Origin: Ilumatobacteraceae bacterium
Lineage (GTDB): Bacteria; Actinomycetota; Acidimicrobiia; Acidimicrobiales; Ilumatobacteraceae
Direction of reading: 5' to 3'
NCBI GenBank assembly: GCA_021298195.1
Contig: JAJTEQ010000031.1
Span: 1 to 53,970, forward strand
DNA length: 53,970 bases
Part shown: piece by piece, positions 41,643 to 47,108 of the stretch
Layout of the letters: each line of letters starts with the position of its first letter
Numbering within the stretch: position 1 is the first letter of the stretch
Position numbers and translations under genes: made by a program
The notes under the pieces: generated by a model
What the model was told of the DNA's origin: nothing
The model's database searches: none
The model's input: only the letters and a program-made list of their open reading frames with translations

Positions 41643-42185
41643 ATGGCCGATACCCGTCCGAGCGCGAGACGGGACCGGTTGATGGCACGACATTCGAGGA
41701 AAGACGAAGGCGCCAGCCTGGTGGAGACGGTGATCGCCGTCTCGCTGATGGGACTCGTCGTGGCCGGCGTGTTGGGGGCCATGTGGTCGTCGGTGCGCTT
41801 GTCGCGCTTTTCCGACGACCAAGCCAAGGTCGAGGCCGTGCTGGGAAGTGCGGCGGATCGGTTGGCGAACTACGCCTACATCCCCTGCCCCACACTCACC
41901 GGCAACGGCGGATACCTGCCCATCGTGCAAGCCGCCGCCGGCACGGTGGACTGGCCCGTCTCCACCGTCACGTTGGTCTCGCTGCGCCACTGGTCGCCGA
42001 CGTCGCCGTCGCAAGGCACCTGGGTCACCACCAACGGACTCACGGCCGGCGAGTGCAACGAATCCGCGTCGCTCACCACCGCCCGCACCCTGCAATTGAT
42101 CACCATCTCGGTGACCTCGCCGTCCGGATACACCAAGACGCTCGAGGTGGTGAAGAACAATGTCTTTCCGCGCGTCATCTCGTGA
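41643..42185 (+). CDS. Type IV prepilin-like protein (minor pilin)
   Basis: This 180-aa protein has a prepilin N-terminus: a basic leader ending in Gly, then ASLVETVIAVSLMGLVVAG, with Glu at +5 of the mature protein and a hydrophobic helix. That is the class III signal cut and methylated by prepilin peptidase, giving a subunit that packs into a pilus-like fibre. The globular part has cysteines in IPCPTLTG and AGECNESAS that could form a disulfide, and long beta strands at the end. From ATG 41643 the leader is 23 residues; ATG 41682 would give a 10-residue leader, closer to those of the next two genes and possibly the true start. It overlaps the next gene by 26 bp. The product cannot be the major pilin by any evidence here, and its role is inferred from the cluster. 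Confidence 0.8.
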   Translation: MADTRPSARRDRLMARHSRKDEGASLVETVIAVSLMGLVVAGVLGAMWSSVRLSRFSDDQAKVEAVLGSAADRLANYAYIPCPTLTGNGGYLPIVQAAAGTVDWPVSTVTLVSLRHWSPTSPSQGTWVTTNGLTAGECNESASLTTARTLQLITISVTSPSGYTKTLEVVKNNVFPRVIS

Positions 42186-43866
42186 CGAGACCGATCGAGG
42201 GATGACCCTCGTCGAGTTGCTCATCACGGTCACCATCCTCGGCGTCATCATGTCGTCGTTGGCCGCGGCGGTCATCGTGATGCTGCGATCCGAGGCACCC
42301 ACCCGGGATCGCATCGCCGAATCCAAGGACGTCACGTTCCTGCAGGCCTGGATTCCCACCGACCTGGCATCGGCGGTCTCGCGCAACGTCGAACCGACGT
42401 ATCAACCCGCGGCGGCGACCATGCTCCCCGGCACGAACGTCATCACCATCACCAGACCGGATCTGTCCGGCTCTTCGGCGCCGTCGTACGTCACCATCAG
42501 TTATCGCTACGTGAACGACGGCGACGAATGGCAGTTGCGGCGTTACGAGATTCGCAACCCGAACGGGCCGAGCCCCGAGGTGACGCAAGTGGGCGTGGCC
42601 CACGAACTGGCCGCACCGCCACCCACGTGGACGGCGACCCAACCACCGGTGCACGCCGTTCTCGTCACGGCGCGAAATCAAGTGGTCTTGCGTCCCATCG
42701 GTGAGGACATCGACGTCACCTTCGCCAGTGGTGAGGTGTTCACCACCGGAGGAGCCGGACTGTCCTCCGAGGATCAACTGCCGACCAACTACACCGGTGG
42801 CATCGTGGACCCGGCGGCACCTCCGAGTCGGTGCGGTGGAACGGTCACCATCGTTCTCGACACCTCCAGTTCCATTCCGTCGCAGAACGGTCAGACCGCA
42901 CTGGTGAACGCGGCCCTCGGCTTCATCGACGCGTACACGGGAACCCCCACGTTCATGCGAATCGTGGGATTCGACATCTCCGCGTACTCGTACTACCCCA
43001 CCACCGCCGGTCAATACGTCAACATCCTCAACCCGTCATCGTCGCTCACGGCCATGCGCAACAAGGTCGACGCCCAGGACACCTCGTCGGGGCGTTGGGG
43101 TGGTGGCACCAATTGGGAGGACGGACTCTGGCAGGCGTTTCGCACGACATCGGGAACGCCCTTCGCGCAGCTTCCCGAGCTCGTGGTGTTCGTGTCCGAT
43201 GGTGAGCCCAATCGAAATCGAACCAACCTTCCGAGCGATGGCGACACTCGGTACAACTCCACGGATCTCTCGCGCGCCGTCACGGCGGCCAACTACGGGC
43301 GTGGAACCGGTGCCCGCGTGGTCGGGGTGCTCGTCGGCAACGATGCCAGCACCACCAACCAGGACCGGATGAGGAGCGTGGTCGGTCCGGTCACCTGGAA
43401 CGGCACCGGGCCAACCAACCTCGGCAACGCGTCGGCGGCCGACTTCTTCCTCCCCGCCAATTCGGCCTCGTTCGCCCAACTGGGCAACGTGCTGCGCGCC
43501 ATCAGTGCCGCCCAATGCGGTGGAACCGTGACGGTACAGAAGCGCATCGAGGTCGGGGGCTCGCTCGTCGAGGCCAGCGGCGTGTGGAGCTACACCACCG
43601 ATGTCGGGGTTCGCGAGCTCGATCTGGCGACCTCGTCGTCGATCACCTTCGACTACACCTTCCCGACCGGCACCACCACCCGCTCCGTGCGCATCGGCGA
43701 GACCCCGGTGGCGGGCTACACGTTCGTGCGGGCCGAGTGCACGTCGGCCGGCGCCCCACTGGGAGCGGACCGCATCACGTCGCCGACCGACGGCACCTCC
43801 GGAGTGATCATCACGCTCACGCCCGACGAGGCCGTGTCCTGCGTGATGATCTCGAGGCCGTCATGA
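42160..43866 (+). CDS. Prepilin fused to a von Willebrand A domain (putative pilus-tip adhesin)
   Basis: This 568-aa protein joins three parts. Residues 1-14 are a prepilin leader ending in Gly, and MTLVELLITVTILGVIMSSL follows with Glu at +5. Residues about 40-220 form a pilin-like beta region. Residues about 226-450 are a vWA domain with a complete MIDAS: DTSSS (234-238), Thr317 in GGGTNWEDG and Asp347 in VFVSDGEP. Residues about 453-568 are beta-rich (GVWSYTTDVG, RIGETPVAGYTFVRAECTSA, VIITLTPDEAVSCVM) and resemble the prealbumin-like repeats of actinobacterial surface proteins. The motif CGGTVT stands just before (225-230) and just after (453-458) the vWA domain. Minor pilins that carry a vWA adhesion domain are known in Streptococcus sanguinis (PilB). 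By analogy this protein would sit at a fibre tip and bind a ligand through its metal site. Confidence 0.85.
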   Translation: MSFRASSRDETDRGMTLVELLITVTILGVIMSSLAAAVIVMLRSEAPTRDRIAESKDVTFLQAWIPTDLASAVSRNVEPTYQPAAATMLPGTNVITITRPDLSGSSAPSYVTISYRYVNDGDEWQLRRYEIRNPNGPSPEVTQVGVAHELAAPPPTWTATQPPVHAVLVTARNQVVLRPIGEDIDVTFASGEVFTTGGAGLSSEDQLPTNYTGGIVDPAAPPSRCGGTVTIVLDTSSSIPSQNGQTALVNAALGFIDAYTGTPTFMRIVGFDISAYSYYPTTAGQYVNILNPSSSLTAMRNKVDAQDTSSGRWGGGTNWEDGLWQAFRTTSGTPFAQLPELVVFVSDGEPNRNRTNLPSDGDTRYNSTDLSRAVTAANYGRGTGARVVGVLVGNDASTTNQDRMRSVVGPVTWNGTGPTNLGNASAADFFLPANSASFAQLGNVLRAISAAQCGGTVTVQKRIEVGGSLVEASGVWSYTTDVGVRELDLATSSSITFDYTFPTGTTTRSVRIGETPVAGYTFVRAECTSAGAPLGADRITSPTDGTSGVIITLTPDEAVSCVMISRPS

Positions 43867-45314
43867 AACGATGCGGGTCCGACGACCGCGGCTCGGCGTT
43901 GCTGATGGTCATGATCCTGATGGTGGTCGGAGGTGTCATCGCCACCGGGTTGTTGACGTACTCGCAAGCGGTCATTCGTGCTCGACCCGCGTTGCACGAA
44001 CGCATCGCCGGTGCCGAGGCCGTGAAGTCCGGCACGCGCATGGCGATCACCCTTCAACGCGAGTTCGGCCCGTCCGACTGTTTCACCGGTAGCACACAGT
44101 GGACGATCGCCGGCGCCGACGTGACGGCCACCTGCACGAGCCTGTCCCATTACACCACCGGTCGCGGTCGCGTCGGAACGGTCGTCACCGCGAACTCGGG
44201 TACCCCATCGAGCATCGTCACTCCGACGTGGGCCGGAAGCGTGGCCCGCGCCCTGTCCGGAGACGTGTCGATCAACACCGGAGCCATGGGCGTTTCGTCC
44301 TCCTCGGTGATCTCTCGCGGTACCAACGACACGTACTCGTGGACCGAGGTGCCGACGCCGTGGTGGCAGACGGTCGGCGACCTCGACGGCGTCACGCGCA
44401 CCTATCCGTCCCTGCCCCAGGTGCCCAGTTATTCGCGGCCGGGTTCGCAGGCGTCCATCGGTTCGTGTCTCGTCTACTTCCCCGGGCGCTACCTCGGAAC
44501 GACGCCGCTGACGCTGACCGGCGGCACCCATTACTTCGCCTCGGGTGTGTACTACTTCGAACGGCCACTCGTCATCACGGGAGGGGCACAAGTCGTCTTC
44601 GGAGAGGGCTTGTACTCCGGTTGCGCGGTCGATGCTCAAGCCGCCTACGCCGCCACCGCTCCCAAGAGTCACGAGATCACCGGCAAAGGGGCCACGCTGT
44701 TGCTCGGGGACATCGCCGCGCTCACCGTTCAGGAGTCCTCGGTCCGCTTCAACCGTCGAGTGTCGACGGCGTCCAACCGTGGAAGCGAGGGGGTGTCGAT
44801 TCGTACGGTGAACTTCGGTCAATCGAACGCCTCGGTCACGGTCCCCGCGGACTCGGTGTTGCTCGCCGACGGTTCGACCACCCCGGTCACGAGCCATTCC
44901 ATCGTTCCGATCGCCAACTCGACACCGGTTTCGTATCGCACCTCGACCCTCTCGCCGACGACGTCGTGGGCGGTGGACGTGCGGCTGAACGGAACATCAG
45001 TGACCGCCAACCGGTTTCTCGCGGACGGCTACATCTTCGTTCCCAATGCCGGTGTGCGCGTCACCGGCACCACCGCCACCTACGCCTGGTCCAGTTCAAG
45101 CGGCGTGGTGGCCACGCGAGTGGAGCATTCCCTGGCGCAAGCGCCTTCGACGTCGACGAACTACGTCACGGGCGTGGTGTCCCAGACGATCCAACGCAAG
45201 GTGCGGCTGTCGGTCACCGCCGCCACCGACGGTCACTCCGCGGTGTCGACCGCGGTCGTCGAAGTTCACGCCGACAAGAGTTACGCCATCAACTCGTGGG
45301 TCATCGATCCGTGA
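43863..45314 (+). CDS. PilX/GspK-like pilin-related protein lacking Glu5
   Basis: This 483-aa protein begins MKRCGSDDRG, then SALLMVMILMVVGGVIATGL: a short leader ending in Gly and a hydrophobic helix, but with Met where mature pilins have Glu5. PilX- and GspK-like minor pilins that cap a fibre can lack this glutamate. After the helix comes AEAVKSGTRMAITLQREFG, a helical spine typical of PilX N-terminal regions. About 400 residues follow that are rich in Ser, Thr, Gly and Val with strongly beta sequence (GTHYFASGVYYFERPLVITG, SVTVPADSVLLADG), fitting an extended extracellular domain. The ATG overlaps the previous stop in ATGA, so the three pilin genes are translationally coupled. The large domain has no family I recognise. 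Confidence 0.78.
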   Translation: MKRCGSDDRGSALLMVMILMVVGGVIATGLLTYSQAVIRARPALHERIAGAEAVKSGTRMAITLQREFGPSDCFTGSTQWTIAGADVTATCTSLSHYTTGRGRVGTVVTANSGTPSSIVTPTWAGSVARALSGDVSINTGAMGVSSSSVISRGTNDTYSWTEVPTPWWQTVGDLDGVTRTYPSLPQVPSYSRPGSQASIGSCLVYFPGRYLGTTPLTLTGGTHYFASGVYYFERPLVITGGAQVVFGEGLYSGCAVDAQAAYAATAPKSHEITGKGATLLLGDIAALTVQESSVRFNRRVSTASNRGSEGVSIRTVNFGQSNASVTVPADSVLLADGSTTPVTSHSIVPIANSTPVSYRTSTLSPTTSWAVDVRLNGTSVTANRFLADGYIFVPNAGVRVTGTTATYAWSSSSGVVATRVEHSLAQAPSTSTNYVTGVVSQTIQRKVRLSVTAATDGHSAVSTAVVEVHADKSYAINSWVIDP

Positions 45315-45324
45315 CGGACCCGCG

Positions 45325-46191
45325 TCAGCCGGCCAGCACCGCGCGGGCCACCAGATCGGTGCCGAACGCGGTGAGAATCGCCAGGTACATGAGCCCGGTC
45401 GCCGCCATCACCGCCGAGTACGCCCGCTCGGTCAGCGCTTTCAAGGTCACGACGCCCAGAACGCCGGTGGTGACGGCGCAGGCCGCCCAGAACCAGCCCA
45501 ACTGACCGCTCCACCCGTCGTCCACCGAACCGGAGAAGACGCTGAACATTCCGGTGGGGATCGACATCACCACCACCTCCGCCGGCCACGACCACAGGAA
45601 GGCGCGCACGATCTCGTTCACGTGTCGACGCGGCAGCCCCGGTTGCACCAGATACCAATGGCCGAGAAGCATCGCGTCGCTCACCAATCCGAGGAAGATC
45701 GCGCCGACGATGATGCGCGACACCGCCAACACATCGGCTCCACCGGCGGTGATTCCGGCGGCCACCAGCACGGGAAGGCCGACGATCACCGGGAGGAGAT
45801 CGAGTCGCGGATCGAATTCAGGACCCGAGTCGCGAACCTGAACAGAACCGCGTCGATCGATTCCGGTCATGCGCGCCACACGCTCGGTGCGCTCGTCGTG
45901 TTGCTCGAGGAAACCACGTACACCGGCGCGTCGACGAACGATGCTCTGCACCAACGGCACCAGGCACGCCACGGCCACCAGGACACCACCGACATCGCGC
46001 ACGCCCTCGGCGGCGCCGTCGAACGATGTGCCGGCGAACAGGATCGCTCCGCCGGCCATGACGAAATAGGTTCCACGAAGGAGCCAGCCGTAACCGAGGC
46101 CGACCTCACGATGCCGAGTGGTGAACCAACAACCGAACATTCCGCCGATCGCCCATTGCAGGAGCACGGTGGTCGCATCGAGTTGAATCAC
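45325..46191 (-). CDS. Integral membrane protein of unknown function
   Basis: This 288-aa protein has about seven to eight hydrophobic helices, such as VLLQWAIGGMFGCWFTT, LRGTYFVMAGGAILFAG, LPVIVGLPVLVAAGITAGG and WFWAACAVTTGVLGVVTLKAL. A cytoplasmic loop in the middle is charged (RTERVARMTGIDRRGSVQVR). I do not recognise the family. The GTG at 46191 is chosen because a TAGCGT box ends exactly 7 nt upstream; another GTG at 46200 overlaps that box. It is convergent with the pilin operon (10 bp apart) and divergent from the lipoprotein gene (54 bp apart). Its position next to the pilin cluster is the only hint of function. Confidence 0.75.
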   Translation of the reverse strand: MIQLDATTVLLQWAIGGMFGCWFTTRHREVGLGYGWLLRGTYFVMAGGAILFAGTSFDGAAEGVRDVGGVLVAVACLVPLVQSIVRRRAGVRGFLEQHDERTERVARMTGIDRRGSVQVRDSGPEFDPRLDLLPVIVGLPVLVAAGITAGGADVLAVSRIIVGAIFLGLVSDAMLLGHWYLVQPGLPRRHVNEIVRAFLWSWPAEVVVMSIPTGMFSVFSGSVDDGWSGQLGWFWAACAVTTGVLGVVTLKALTERAYSAVMAATGLMYLAILTAFGTDLVARAVLAG

Positions 46192-46198
46192 GGTCGTC

Positions 46199-46204
46199 AC
46201 GCTA
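46199..46204 (-). promoter_or_regulatory. -10 box for the membrane protein gene
   Basis: TAGCGT on the minus strand ends 7 nt before the GTG at 46191. Confidence 0.5.
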
Positions 46205-46233
46205 CGACCAGTCCTCACCTTCGCGACGCACCG

Positions 46234-46239
46234 TAGGCT
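46234..46239 (+). promoter_or_regulatory. -10 box for the lipoprotein gene
   Basis: TAGGCT ends 6 nt before the GTG at 46246, back to back with the divergent membrane protein gene. Confidence 0.5.
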
Positions 46240-46245
46240 GACGAG

Positions 46246-46917
46246 GTGCTTGCGAACGTGCGTGGATTCACCTCGACATCGGTCGCGACCGTGGTTCTGG
46301 CCCTCACTCTTTCGTCGTGTTTCACCGGATCCCGACCGACGCTCGAACCGGCCGACACGATTGTTCCCCTCGACGACCCCGCCGCGGCCGACGTCGTCAC
46401 GGCTCTGGCGACGACCGCGACGACCGCGTTCACCATCGAATACGAGATCGTCACCAAATTCGGCGGGCAGACGACCCGCGCCGTGATCGCCACCGATGAG
46501 ATCCTCGGAACGAGTGTCGAGATCGGCGACATTCGTTATCTCTTCACCGCCGAGGGCACCACGTCCACGTGTTCCACGACGACGTTCGAGTGTGCGACGG
46601 GCATCGACGAGACCCGGGTCTCCGATCGTCAGTTGACGTCCACCTTCTTCAAGCAGTCGGCGATCGAGCGAATCCGTCAGGACGCCCGTGTCGCGATCGG
46701 CCCGGCCACGGGCTACGAAGGAACGACCGATGTGGGTCGTGCGAGTCGTTGTGCCGACTTCTCGGTGATCGACGCCCAGGGTGCCTCGCGAACCAAGACG
46801 TATTGCGTCTTCGAGGATTACGGCGTCATCGCGACGATGGACGTCGCCGATTTGTCCGTGCGCACGGTGAGGGTCGAGGACACCGTCGATCCGGCGCGCT
46901 TCCAACCGCCGGCCTGA
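46246..46917 (+). CDS. Putative lipoprotein of unknown function
   Basis: This 223-aa protein begins with a signal peptide ending in the lipobox LSSC (Cys25), so the mature form should be lipid-anchored on the outer face of the membrane. The mature part is beta-rich and contains paired cysteines: STCSTTTFEC near residues 107-116, and later SRCADF and KTYCVF. Two disulfides are possible. It resembles the many actinobacterial lipoproteins that measure or bind envelope components, but I know no family. Codon use and a promoter-like box match its neighbours. The gene is followed by 24-bp repeats that belong to the convergent NlpC/P60 gene. Confidence 0.72.
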   Translation: MLANVRGFTSTSVATVVLALTLSSCFTGSRPTLEPADTIVPLDDPAAADVVTALATTATTAFTIEYEIVTKFGGQTTRAVIATDEILGTSVEIGDIRYLFTAEGTTSTCSTTTFECATGIDETRVSDRQLTSTFFKQSAIERIRQDARVAIGPATGYEGTTDVGRASRCADFSVIDAQGASRTKTYCVFEDYGVIATMDVADLSVRTVRVEDTVDPARFQPPA

Positions 46918-46948
46918 TCATCCCGTCTGCGTCGGAACCCCGACACGT

Positions 46949-47108
46949 CTCCGTCGGGTCCCCGTCACGTCACTCCGTCGGATCTCCGTCACGTCACTCC
47001 GTCGGATCTCCGTCACGTCACTCCGTCGGATCTCCGACATGTCACTCCGTCGGATCTCCGACATGTCTCCGTCGGGTCCCCGTCACGTCACTCCGTCGGA
47101 TCTCCGAC
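46949..47108. repeat. 24-bp tandem repeats at and beyond the NlpC/P60 stop codon
   Basis: Six copies of a unit such as CTCCGTCGGATCTCCGTCAC+GTCA start at 46949, 46973, 46997, 47021, 47045 and 47067, followed by a partial copy at 47091; the fifth copy is 22 bp. The partial copy encodes the last six codons of the minus-strand NlpC/P60 gene (VGDPTE), and the next copy supplies its stop. Read on that strand, each full unit again encodes GDPTE and a TGA. There are no unique spacers between units. Confidence 0.9.

Follow-up and report, generated by a model that had tools for sequence, protein, structure and literature searches.

A three-gene I-J-K minor-pilin module in an Ilumatobacteraceae bacterium, probably the adhesive tip complex of its type IV pilus

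The three-gene module

The window analyzed here, a stretch of 53,970 nucleotides (contig JAJTEQ010000031.1 of GenBank assembly GCA_021298195.1, from an Ilumatobacteraceae bacterium), carries three overlapping genes on its forward strand, here named I, J and K, which encode candidate minor pilins and are considered below as a probable tip complex of a type IV pilus. Genes I and J overlap by 26 bp (42160-42185) and genes J and K by 4 bp (ATGA, 43863-43866), so that the three genes and both overlaps are as the original prediction had described them. The start of gene I was, however, probably placed too early in that prediction. The most likely start is the ATG at 41682 rather than position 41643, as a relative of 98% identity (L027) has no start codon at the position equivalent to 41643 and as the usable starts of gene I in relatives are located a few residues ahead of the Gly at the predicted cleavage site. 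The 26-bp overlap of I and J is kept in all ten close relatives that have both genes, and the ratio of nonsynonymous to synonymous substitution rates (dN/dS) is 0.08-0.16 for I, J and K when compared with two relatives; in the comparison with a third relative (L038), dS is saturated. The kept overlap and the low dN/dS values argue that the module did not arise by chance. Scanning the module for promoters and terminators gave one promoter-like and one terminator-like site, neither of which was useful.

The features are listed below, where Glu5 denotes the Glu at the fifth position after the predicted cleavage site, vWA the von Willebrand factor type A domain, MIDAS its metal ion-dependent adhesion site and pLDDT the predicted local distance difference test score of a structure model.

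41682..42185, forward strand: gene I, candidate small minor pilin of 167 aa; leader end at G10, Glu5 present; operon position like that of GspI/PilV; start moved from 41643
42160..43866, forward strand: gene J, candidate modular minor pilin of 568 aa; leader end at G14, Glu5 present; N_methyl profile score of 25.3 bits, above cut-off
42202..42831, forward strand: pilin module of J, residues 15-224, mapped by alignment; fold unconfirmed by the model
42832..43518, forward strand: vWA module of J, between the invariant Cys225 and Cys453; MIDAS residues D234-x-S236-x-S238, T317 and D347; below the Pfam cut-off
43519..43863, forward strand: C-terminal prealbumin/SpaA-like domain of J, residues 454-568; SpaA_4 score of 21.6 bits (cut-off 27.3); the confident part of the model, with weak Foldseek matches to sortase-pilin structures
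43863..45314, forward strand: gene K, candidate minor pilin of 483 aa; leader end at G10, Met in place of Glu5; operon position like that of GspK/PilX
44448..44762, forward strand: short regular strands of K, residues 196-300, possibly a beta-helix; low-confidence model, pLDDT 60-67 in the best blocks
44955..44960, forward strand: K residues 365/366, the position of insertions in relatives, which depends on the alignment; no insert in the K of the window

Prepilin leaders and the Glu5 pattern

All three proteins begin with what appears to be a class III signal peptide, namely a hydrophilic leader that ends in Gly and is followed by a hydrophobic helix (DEG^ASLVE in I, DRG^MTLVE in J and DRG^SALLM in K, with the predicted cleavage site at ^). 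Alignment of 31 I, 32 J and 33 K proteins showed no variation at the Asp and the Gly of the cleavage site, nor at Glu5 in the I and J proteins. When copies extracted from the genomes were counted, close relatives included, Glu5 was found in 37/37 I, 38/38 J and 0/41 K proteins. It should be noted that this count left out 12 frames (one pilA frame and a further 11, which were either truncated I, J or K frames or pilA frames that the J profile had picked up) and that the script used to set the cleavage site favours Gly or Ala; the alignments show the invariance of Asp, Gly and Glu5 independently of this script. The claim that each of the three genes starts with a prepilin-type leader and helix was thus borne out. 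That the N-terminal helices could be ordinary signal anchors, which had been named beforehand as an outcome that would speak against a pilin module, is opposed by the invariant leader residues, while the structure models are too weak to decide the matter.

The window therefore presents consecutive I, J and K genes of which K is without Glu5. In PMC9934059, the HIJK complex is described as a set in which K alone lacks Glu5. With the N_methyl profile for prepilins, J of the window scores above the cut-off and I below it, and K gives no match. Across the genome, this profile matched, at E<=1, only I, J and the pilin encoded on another contig, C88. No H subunit is found among these three matches, although the profile misses K as well and the genome is 91% complete. 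Tad-type minor pilins (TadE/F) were also considered, and no Tad-family match was obtained in I, J and K of the window at E<=1.

Domains of protein J

Protein J appears to combine a prepilin with a vWA domain that contains a complete MIDAS (DxSxS, T and D). In Pfam, the J of the window shows the prepilin motif above the cut-off and both the vWA domain and a SpaA-like prealbumin domain below it; at E<=0.01, VWA was matched in 21 and SpaA_4 in six of the 32 J members. The MIDAS residues D234, S236, S238, T317 and D347 are invariant in all 32 proteins and so are the cysteines 225, 453, 527 and 561, while the length of the stretch from Cys225 to Cys453 varies between 229 and 642 residues. Searching the chains of the PDB with the J profile gave matches to vWA-containing chains such as the inter-alpha-trypsin inhibitor heavy chain H4 (5e-6) and integrin alpha-X (1e-3); the chain with the best match (7e-11) bears the name 'Flagellin hook IN motif family'. 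By analogy, the vWA domain of J may be a metal-binding adhesin for protein ligands. When the AlphaFold model of J was compared by Foldseek, nothing matched at E<=0.001, and the top, weak rows are sortase-type pilins of streptococci. A C-terminal beta-propeller of the PilC/PilY1 type was not matched by Pfam in any of the 32 J or 33 K members.

Protein K and its inserts

For the 483-aa K of the window, no Pfam domain was matched. Among the 33 K proteins, Pfam matches at E<=0.01 were obtained for Fn3 in ten, PA14 in four and F5/8 type C in two, domains that fit a role in adhesion. In twelve of the 33, inserts of 161-755 residues occur, all at a single place in the alignment that follows residue 365 of the K of the window, which itself has none. 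The strongest solved-structure matches of the K profile were chains of the PA14 type; these reflect the inserts of some relatives and not the K of the window, and were rejected as its relatives. The same search with I yielded two chance-level matches only. The original prediction of two large extracellular cargo proteins can thus be kept for J, with its vWA and prealbumin-like domains, and not for K, which shows no recognized domain and no long inserts.

We also considered a trade-off of cargo between J and K, as their lengths are anticorrelated over 27 modules (rho -0.64, or -0.79 without the window). With independent contrasts on a tree of 29 modules, the correlation was r -0.23 (p 0.23). 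As shared ancestry can explain the anticorrelation, no such trade-off is claimed.

Pilus machinery in the same genome

The same genome (G000, about 91% complete) encodes pilB, pilC, pilD, pilT and pilA together on contig C88. The A24 peptidase of this locus is the only prepilin peptidase that a genome-wide profile search found, and a prepilin peptidase, an assembly ATPase and a platform protein are thus encoded in the genome of the candidate prepilins. The genome-wide profile matches for the ATPase and the peptidase are all on contigs other than that of the window, which was itself not profile-scanned for PilC. Accordingly, the description of the module as being without pilus machinery is true locally, at the window, and not for the genome, where PilB, PilC, PilD, PilT and a pilin are present; the lack of any prepilin peptidase or pilus ATPase, which would have told against a pilin module, is not what was found. 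The solved structures nearest to C88 PilB are GspE and PilB ATPases, with near-equal scores, and the name PilT is based on similarity and gene context (a PilT-type ATPase that adjoins pilD and pilA).

Some further observations concern these loci. PilB is located at C88 12458-13723, and its open frame in the window's genus has 423-426 codons (six genomes), compared with about 560-660 in most other genera, so that the N-terminal domain of PilB appears to be missing in this genus. Beside the pil locus, on the minus strand of C88 (18712-22017), lies a gene for a large, secreted-looking protein of 1101 aa with repeats. Two more ATPases, on C23 and C104, are found in loci that were read as Tad-like by sequence inspection, without profiles of the neighbours; the one at G000:C23:17171-18085 is a secretion-type ATPase, CpaF-like by reading, with one in-frame TGA within the match.

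PilM was not found in the window's genome and was found in only two of the 121 family genomes, one of them below the cut-off, as compared with 48/121 for a PilB-type ATPase (best E <=1e-80). That the search for PilM and PilO is able to find such genes in the family is indicated by G158, which has both and in which one of the PilB genes shares a contig with PilO. PilO was likewise matched in 2/121 genomes, with a profile that is insensitive (3/14 control genomes matched), and no search aimed at PilN was made. The PilM, PilN and PilO set of a canonical type IVa pilus is thus not seen in the window's genome, where PilM is not found, and the absence of PilT that characterizes Com pili is not seen either, as a PilT-type ATPase is present. 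The family, as in the T4P loci of L026, L072, L077 and L119-L121, apparently has a PilT-containing type IV filament without PilM. According to PMC6916266, the actinobacterial pili that have been studied belong to the Tad type, and Firmicutes have PilM, PilN and PilO in their type IVa pili. Some type IVa systems are reported from monoderms including Actinobacteria, along with many 'generic' actinobacterial systems, of which a large part is near Tad (PMC6668835).

Location of the module in the genus and family

A search of genome contigs for the module gave 12 loci. Wherever both flanks were present, the module was bordered alike, by a CaiB-like gene on one side and the gene at 45325-46905 on the other. 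It should be considered that the labels CaiB, RlmI, amidase, epimerase, crotonyl-CoA reductase and Tad/CpaF were read from sequence, with no profile behind them. In the window's genus, the pil locus has the order pilB-pilC-pilD-pilT-pilA-RlmI with no I-J-K in all four complete loci (G000, G184, G199 and G212; two further loci are cut off), and in these same four genomes I-J-K lies beside the CaiB-like gene. The congeners G165 and G224 contain no module and present an empty site instead, with the downstream gene following CaiB within about 20 bases; in both, the best ATPase (E 5e-61 and 9e-63) falls short of a PilB-type match.

In sister genera, in contrast, the module can be embedded in the pil locus or lie beside it. 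The order is pilA-I-J-K-DUF429-pilT-pilD-pilC-pilB in G102, G252, G206 and G230, and pilB-pilC-I-J-K-pilD-pilT-DUF429 in G200 and G166; in other genomes, I-J-K stands alone or in tandem. The missing linkage between module and machinery in the window fits the separate locus that the module occupies in this genus, unlike in the sister genera. In the pil loci of several genera of the family, pilT is followed by a DUF429 protein, as in L026 (11805-12524), L072 (1432-2151) and their equivalents; the window's genus showed none between pilT and pilA.

The order of the three genes is well conserved. When I and K were sought beside each J, 30 of 32 J genes had a complete I upstream and a complete K downstream, and the remaining two have I or K cut at the edge of the stretch, so that the same three-gene order, which had been suggested as something to look for in other Acidimicrobiia, proved to be a conserved unit. 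Pairwise distances of I, J and K show correlations of 0.79-0.86 across 30 modules, which argues that the trio travels together. Among genomes consisting of a single contig, G006, G134 and G181 have one PilB-type gene and two modules each. In G134 (one contig of 4,830,181 bases), PilB, PilC, PilD, PilT and two I-J-K modules were found, and no pilA-like frame was seen in the stretches inspected.

A tree of 29 modules, which was midpoint-rooted and whose support values were not examined, shows two deep groups: one contains the module of the window, with copies in G134, G162, G180 and G219, and the other holds every pil-embedded copy that was included. The lineage of the window thus seems to carry a copy that is paralogous to the pil-embedded one. 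L070, L071, L073 and L084 each have two or three modules close together, and the within-genome paralogues that were compared are less alike than copies in other genera. Two contigs titled Bifidobacterium breve (L029 and L030, from a metagenome-assembled genome) carry the module and its conserved neighbours, and their species label looks wrong. In the window, a 24-bp tandem repeat of about 7.5 copies (46930-47106) follows immediately after an open frame that ends at 46917.

Co-occurrence with PilB and distribution in the class

The K profile was positive in 44 of the 121 family genomes. A PilB-type ATPase was found in 38 of these 44 and in ten of the 77 K-negative genomes (Fisher p 5e-16, although related species are not independent). 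The K and PilB classes were read by hand, up to 14 ATPase candidates were scored per genome, and G169 was counted as K-negative, though a broader K profile gives a weak K there. In 11 of the 38 genomes with both, a single contig carries K and PilB no more than 20 kb apart. At the level of the genus, co-occurrence alone (6/7 vs 0/2) is not significant (p 0.08).

When 395 genomes of the class were searched with the broader K profile, 20 were positive, and six of these lie outside the family. Frames resembling I, J and K are adjacent in four of these six (L105, L106, L107 and L109). The other two are L104, where J and K are separated by two pilin-like frames, and L108, whose I-like frame is found at a distance of about 4 kb. 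Three loci (L104, L106 and L109) have pilB and pilC ahead of I and J. All six J frames outside the family are short (223-440 aa as open frames), with no vWA in Pfam at E<=0.5. As these J proteins are short and without vWA, the arming of J would be an innovation of the family: on a plain reading of the sequences, an unarmed trio inside a pil operon appears ancestral, and J gained its vWA domain within this family.

Interpretation of the module

We consider it quite probable that I, J and K form the priming, adhesive tip complex of this bacterium's type IV pilus, with the vWA protein J as the adhesin. The machinery in the same genome, the conserved gene order, the Glu5 pattern, the MIDAS, the co-occurrence with PilB and the embedding in pil loci all favour this reading, and the original idea of a priming or tip complex is upheld in the form of a minor-pilin module with an adhesin-like extracellular domain that is a three-gene unit in other Acidimicrobiia. 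How the module works is probably best seen by analogy with GspIJK and with PilABC of Streptococcus sanguinis (PMC9934059, PMC8179133). I, J and K would be exported as prepilins, and their leaders would be cut after the Gly by the PilD of C88. The trio would then assemble in the membrane, prime the growth of the filament by PilB and PilC, and be carried out to the tip, with K, which is without Glu5, capping the complex. At the tip, J would display its vWA domain, with the complete MIDAS, and its prealbumin-like domain, and would bind its ligand via a metal as an adhesin. After binding, PilT would retract the pilus.

Several points weigh against this reading and need to be considered. The paper on Ilumatobacter coccineum YM16-304, a cultured relative (PMC3910706), reports no pili by electron microscopy and states that pilus genes are absent; the lack of visible pili is evidence against easy expression. 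Neither the GspJ nor the GspK fold is confirmed by the AlphaFold models, which were built on shallow alignments (12 rows for J and 13 for K): mean pLDDT is 41 for J, with only the C-terminal domain being confident, and 38 for K, with only hints of a long helix, a beta-helix and a C-terminal sheet. Apart from the prepilin motif, vWA and the SpaA-like domain, no Pfam family was matched in I, J and K of the window, and the vWA and SpaA scores are themselves below the cut-off. To this are added the lack of a PilM match and the six K-positive genomes without a PilB-type match, four of which are less than 90% complete and two of which (G192 and G210) reach 94%.

An I-J-K operon with a K lacking Glu5 is also found in type II secretion (PMC9934059), and the trio could accordingly cap a short pseudopilus (endopilus). 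Such a filament, as part of a type II secretion-like device, would recruit exported proteins or push them across the cell wall, and the vWA domain would bind cargo and not surfaces. The equal closeness of C88 PilB to solved GspE and PilB ATPases suits such a device, as does the lack of reported pili in the cultured relative (PMC3910706). We nonetheless hold it to be unlikely, as PilB is accompanied by a gene for a PilT-type retraction ATPase both in the window's genome and in relatives, while PilT has been lost from type II secretion according to PMC10191384, and as the adhesin-type domains in relatives of K suit a surface tip better. The chances of a competence pilus, the tip trio of which would capture DNA for entry through ComEC, are rated equally small. 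PilM was not found, as in Com pili, and a ComEC-type gene is present in the window's genome; however, this gene is so nearly universal in the family (113/121 genomes) that its co-occurrence with the module does not discriminate, and it is found even in G165 and G224, which have neither the module nor a PilB-type match. PilT is present, unlike in Com pili, and the MIDAS-containing vWA domain suggests, by analogy (PMC8179133), protein ligands rather than DNA.

It is very improbable that the three proteins are relics, or ordinary membrane-anchored surface proteins whose helices are signal anchors and which are not pilins. Such an origin would agree with the position of the module away from the machinery in the window, with the large size of J and K, and with a K leader that has neither Glu5 nor an N_methyl match. 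It is opposed by the purifying selection seen in dN/dS, by the invariant Asp and Gly in all three proteins and Glu5 in I and J, and by the co-occurrence with PilB and the embedding in the pil operons of relatives.

Building on the tip-complex reading, we would tentatively go one step further, to a proposal that we think possible yet rather doubtful as a whole. Ilumatobacter-like Acidimicrobiia may build a retractable PilB/PilC/PilD/PilT filament without PilM, and perhaps without PilN and PilO, that is fitted with an exchangeable tip cassette, derived from the ancestral I-J-K priming trio, in which J itself has turned into the MIDAS adhesin. One engine could then serve one, two or more unlinked tips, and the lineage of the window would have lost the embedded copy and use a relocated paralogue.

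Comparison with known systems

The module was originally proposed as an undescribed system. Instead, it is better described as a variant of two known types, the I-J-K tip complex and modular pilins; modular pilins that carry vWA domains are known in general (PMC8179133). Tip genes broadly like these have been described before; this version combines the standard trio with an adhesion domain and forms a separate, movable gene block. No description of the module was found in the literature among the matches listed, which were mostly titles and the starts of abstracts, with subscription papers mostly outside reach. The module joins the canonical I-J-K priming complex with the vWA-armed modular pilins of Streptococcus sanguinis, in that a single protein takes the position of the J subunit and would also serve as the vWA adhesin, and the short J proteins without vWA outside the family make the arming step traceable. 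It also brings into view a PilT-containing pilus locus, apparently without PilM, in Actinobacteria, where the studied pili are of the Tad type according to PMC6916266.

Two further systems show a partial likeness. PilC/PilY1 tip adhesins also present a vWA domain at the pilus tip together with minor pilins, but PilY1 does not belong to the pilins and its C-terminal domain is a beta-propeller (PMC8179133), which the Pfam scans of J and K did not find here. In ComZ of Thermus and in GspK, which are likewise minor pilins, the pilin beta-sheet is interrupted by an extra domain, a beta-solenoid in the case of ComZ (PMC8179133), whereas the K of the window gives only a low-confidence hint of a beta-helix in its model.

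The HIJK complex (GspH-I-J-K of type II secretion and FimU-PilV-W-X of type IVa pili) shares with the module the adjacent I-J-K order, the class III leaders, the lack of Glu5 in K only and, in relatives, the position inside pil operons. It differs in that no H gene is found here by the N_methyl profile, that J carries a vWA domain with a MIDAS, that the module may be distant from the machinery and may occur in at least two copies, and that the J and K members scanned with Pfam show no domain of the PilY1 type. In the monoderm S. sanguinis, PilA, PilB and PilC (PMC8179133, PMC9934059) are likewise three minor pilins in one operon, one small, one with a MIDAS-containing vWA and one large, and are proposed to act as tip complex and adhesin. 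There, however, it is the I-like PilA that is without Glu5, while here I has it and K does not; the module of the window further has a prealbumin-like domain after the vWA, and no lectin domain was found by Pfam in its K. In our best reading, the module thus resembles GspIJK/PilVWX crossed with the PilABC of S. sanguinis.

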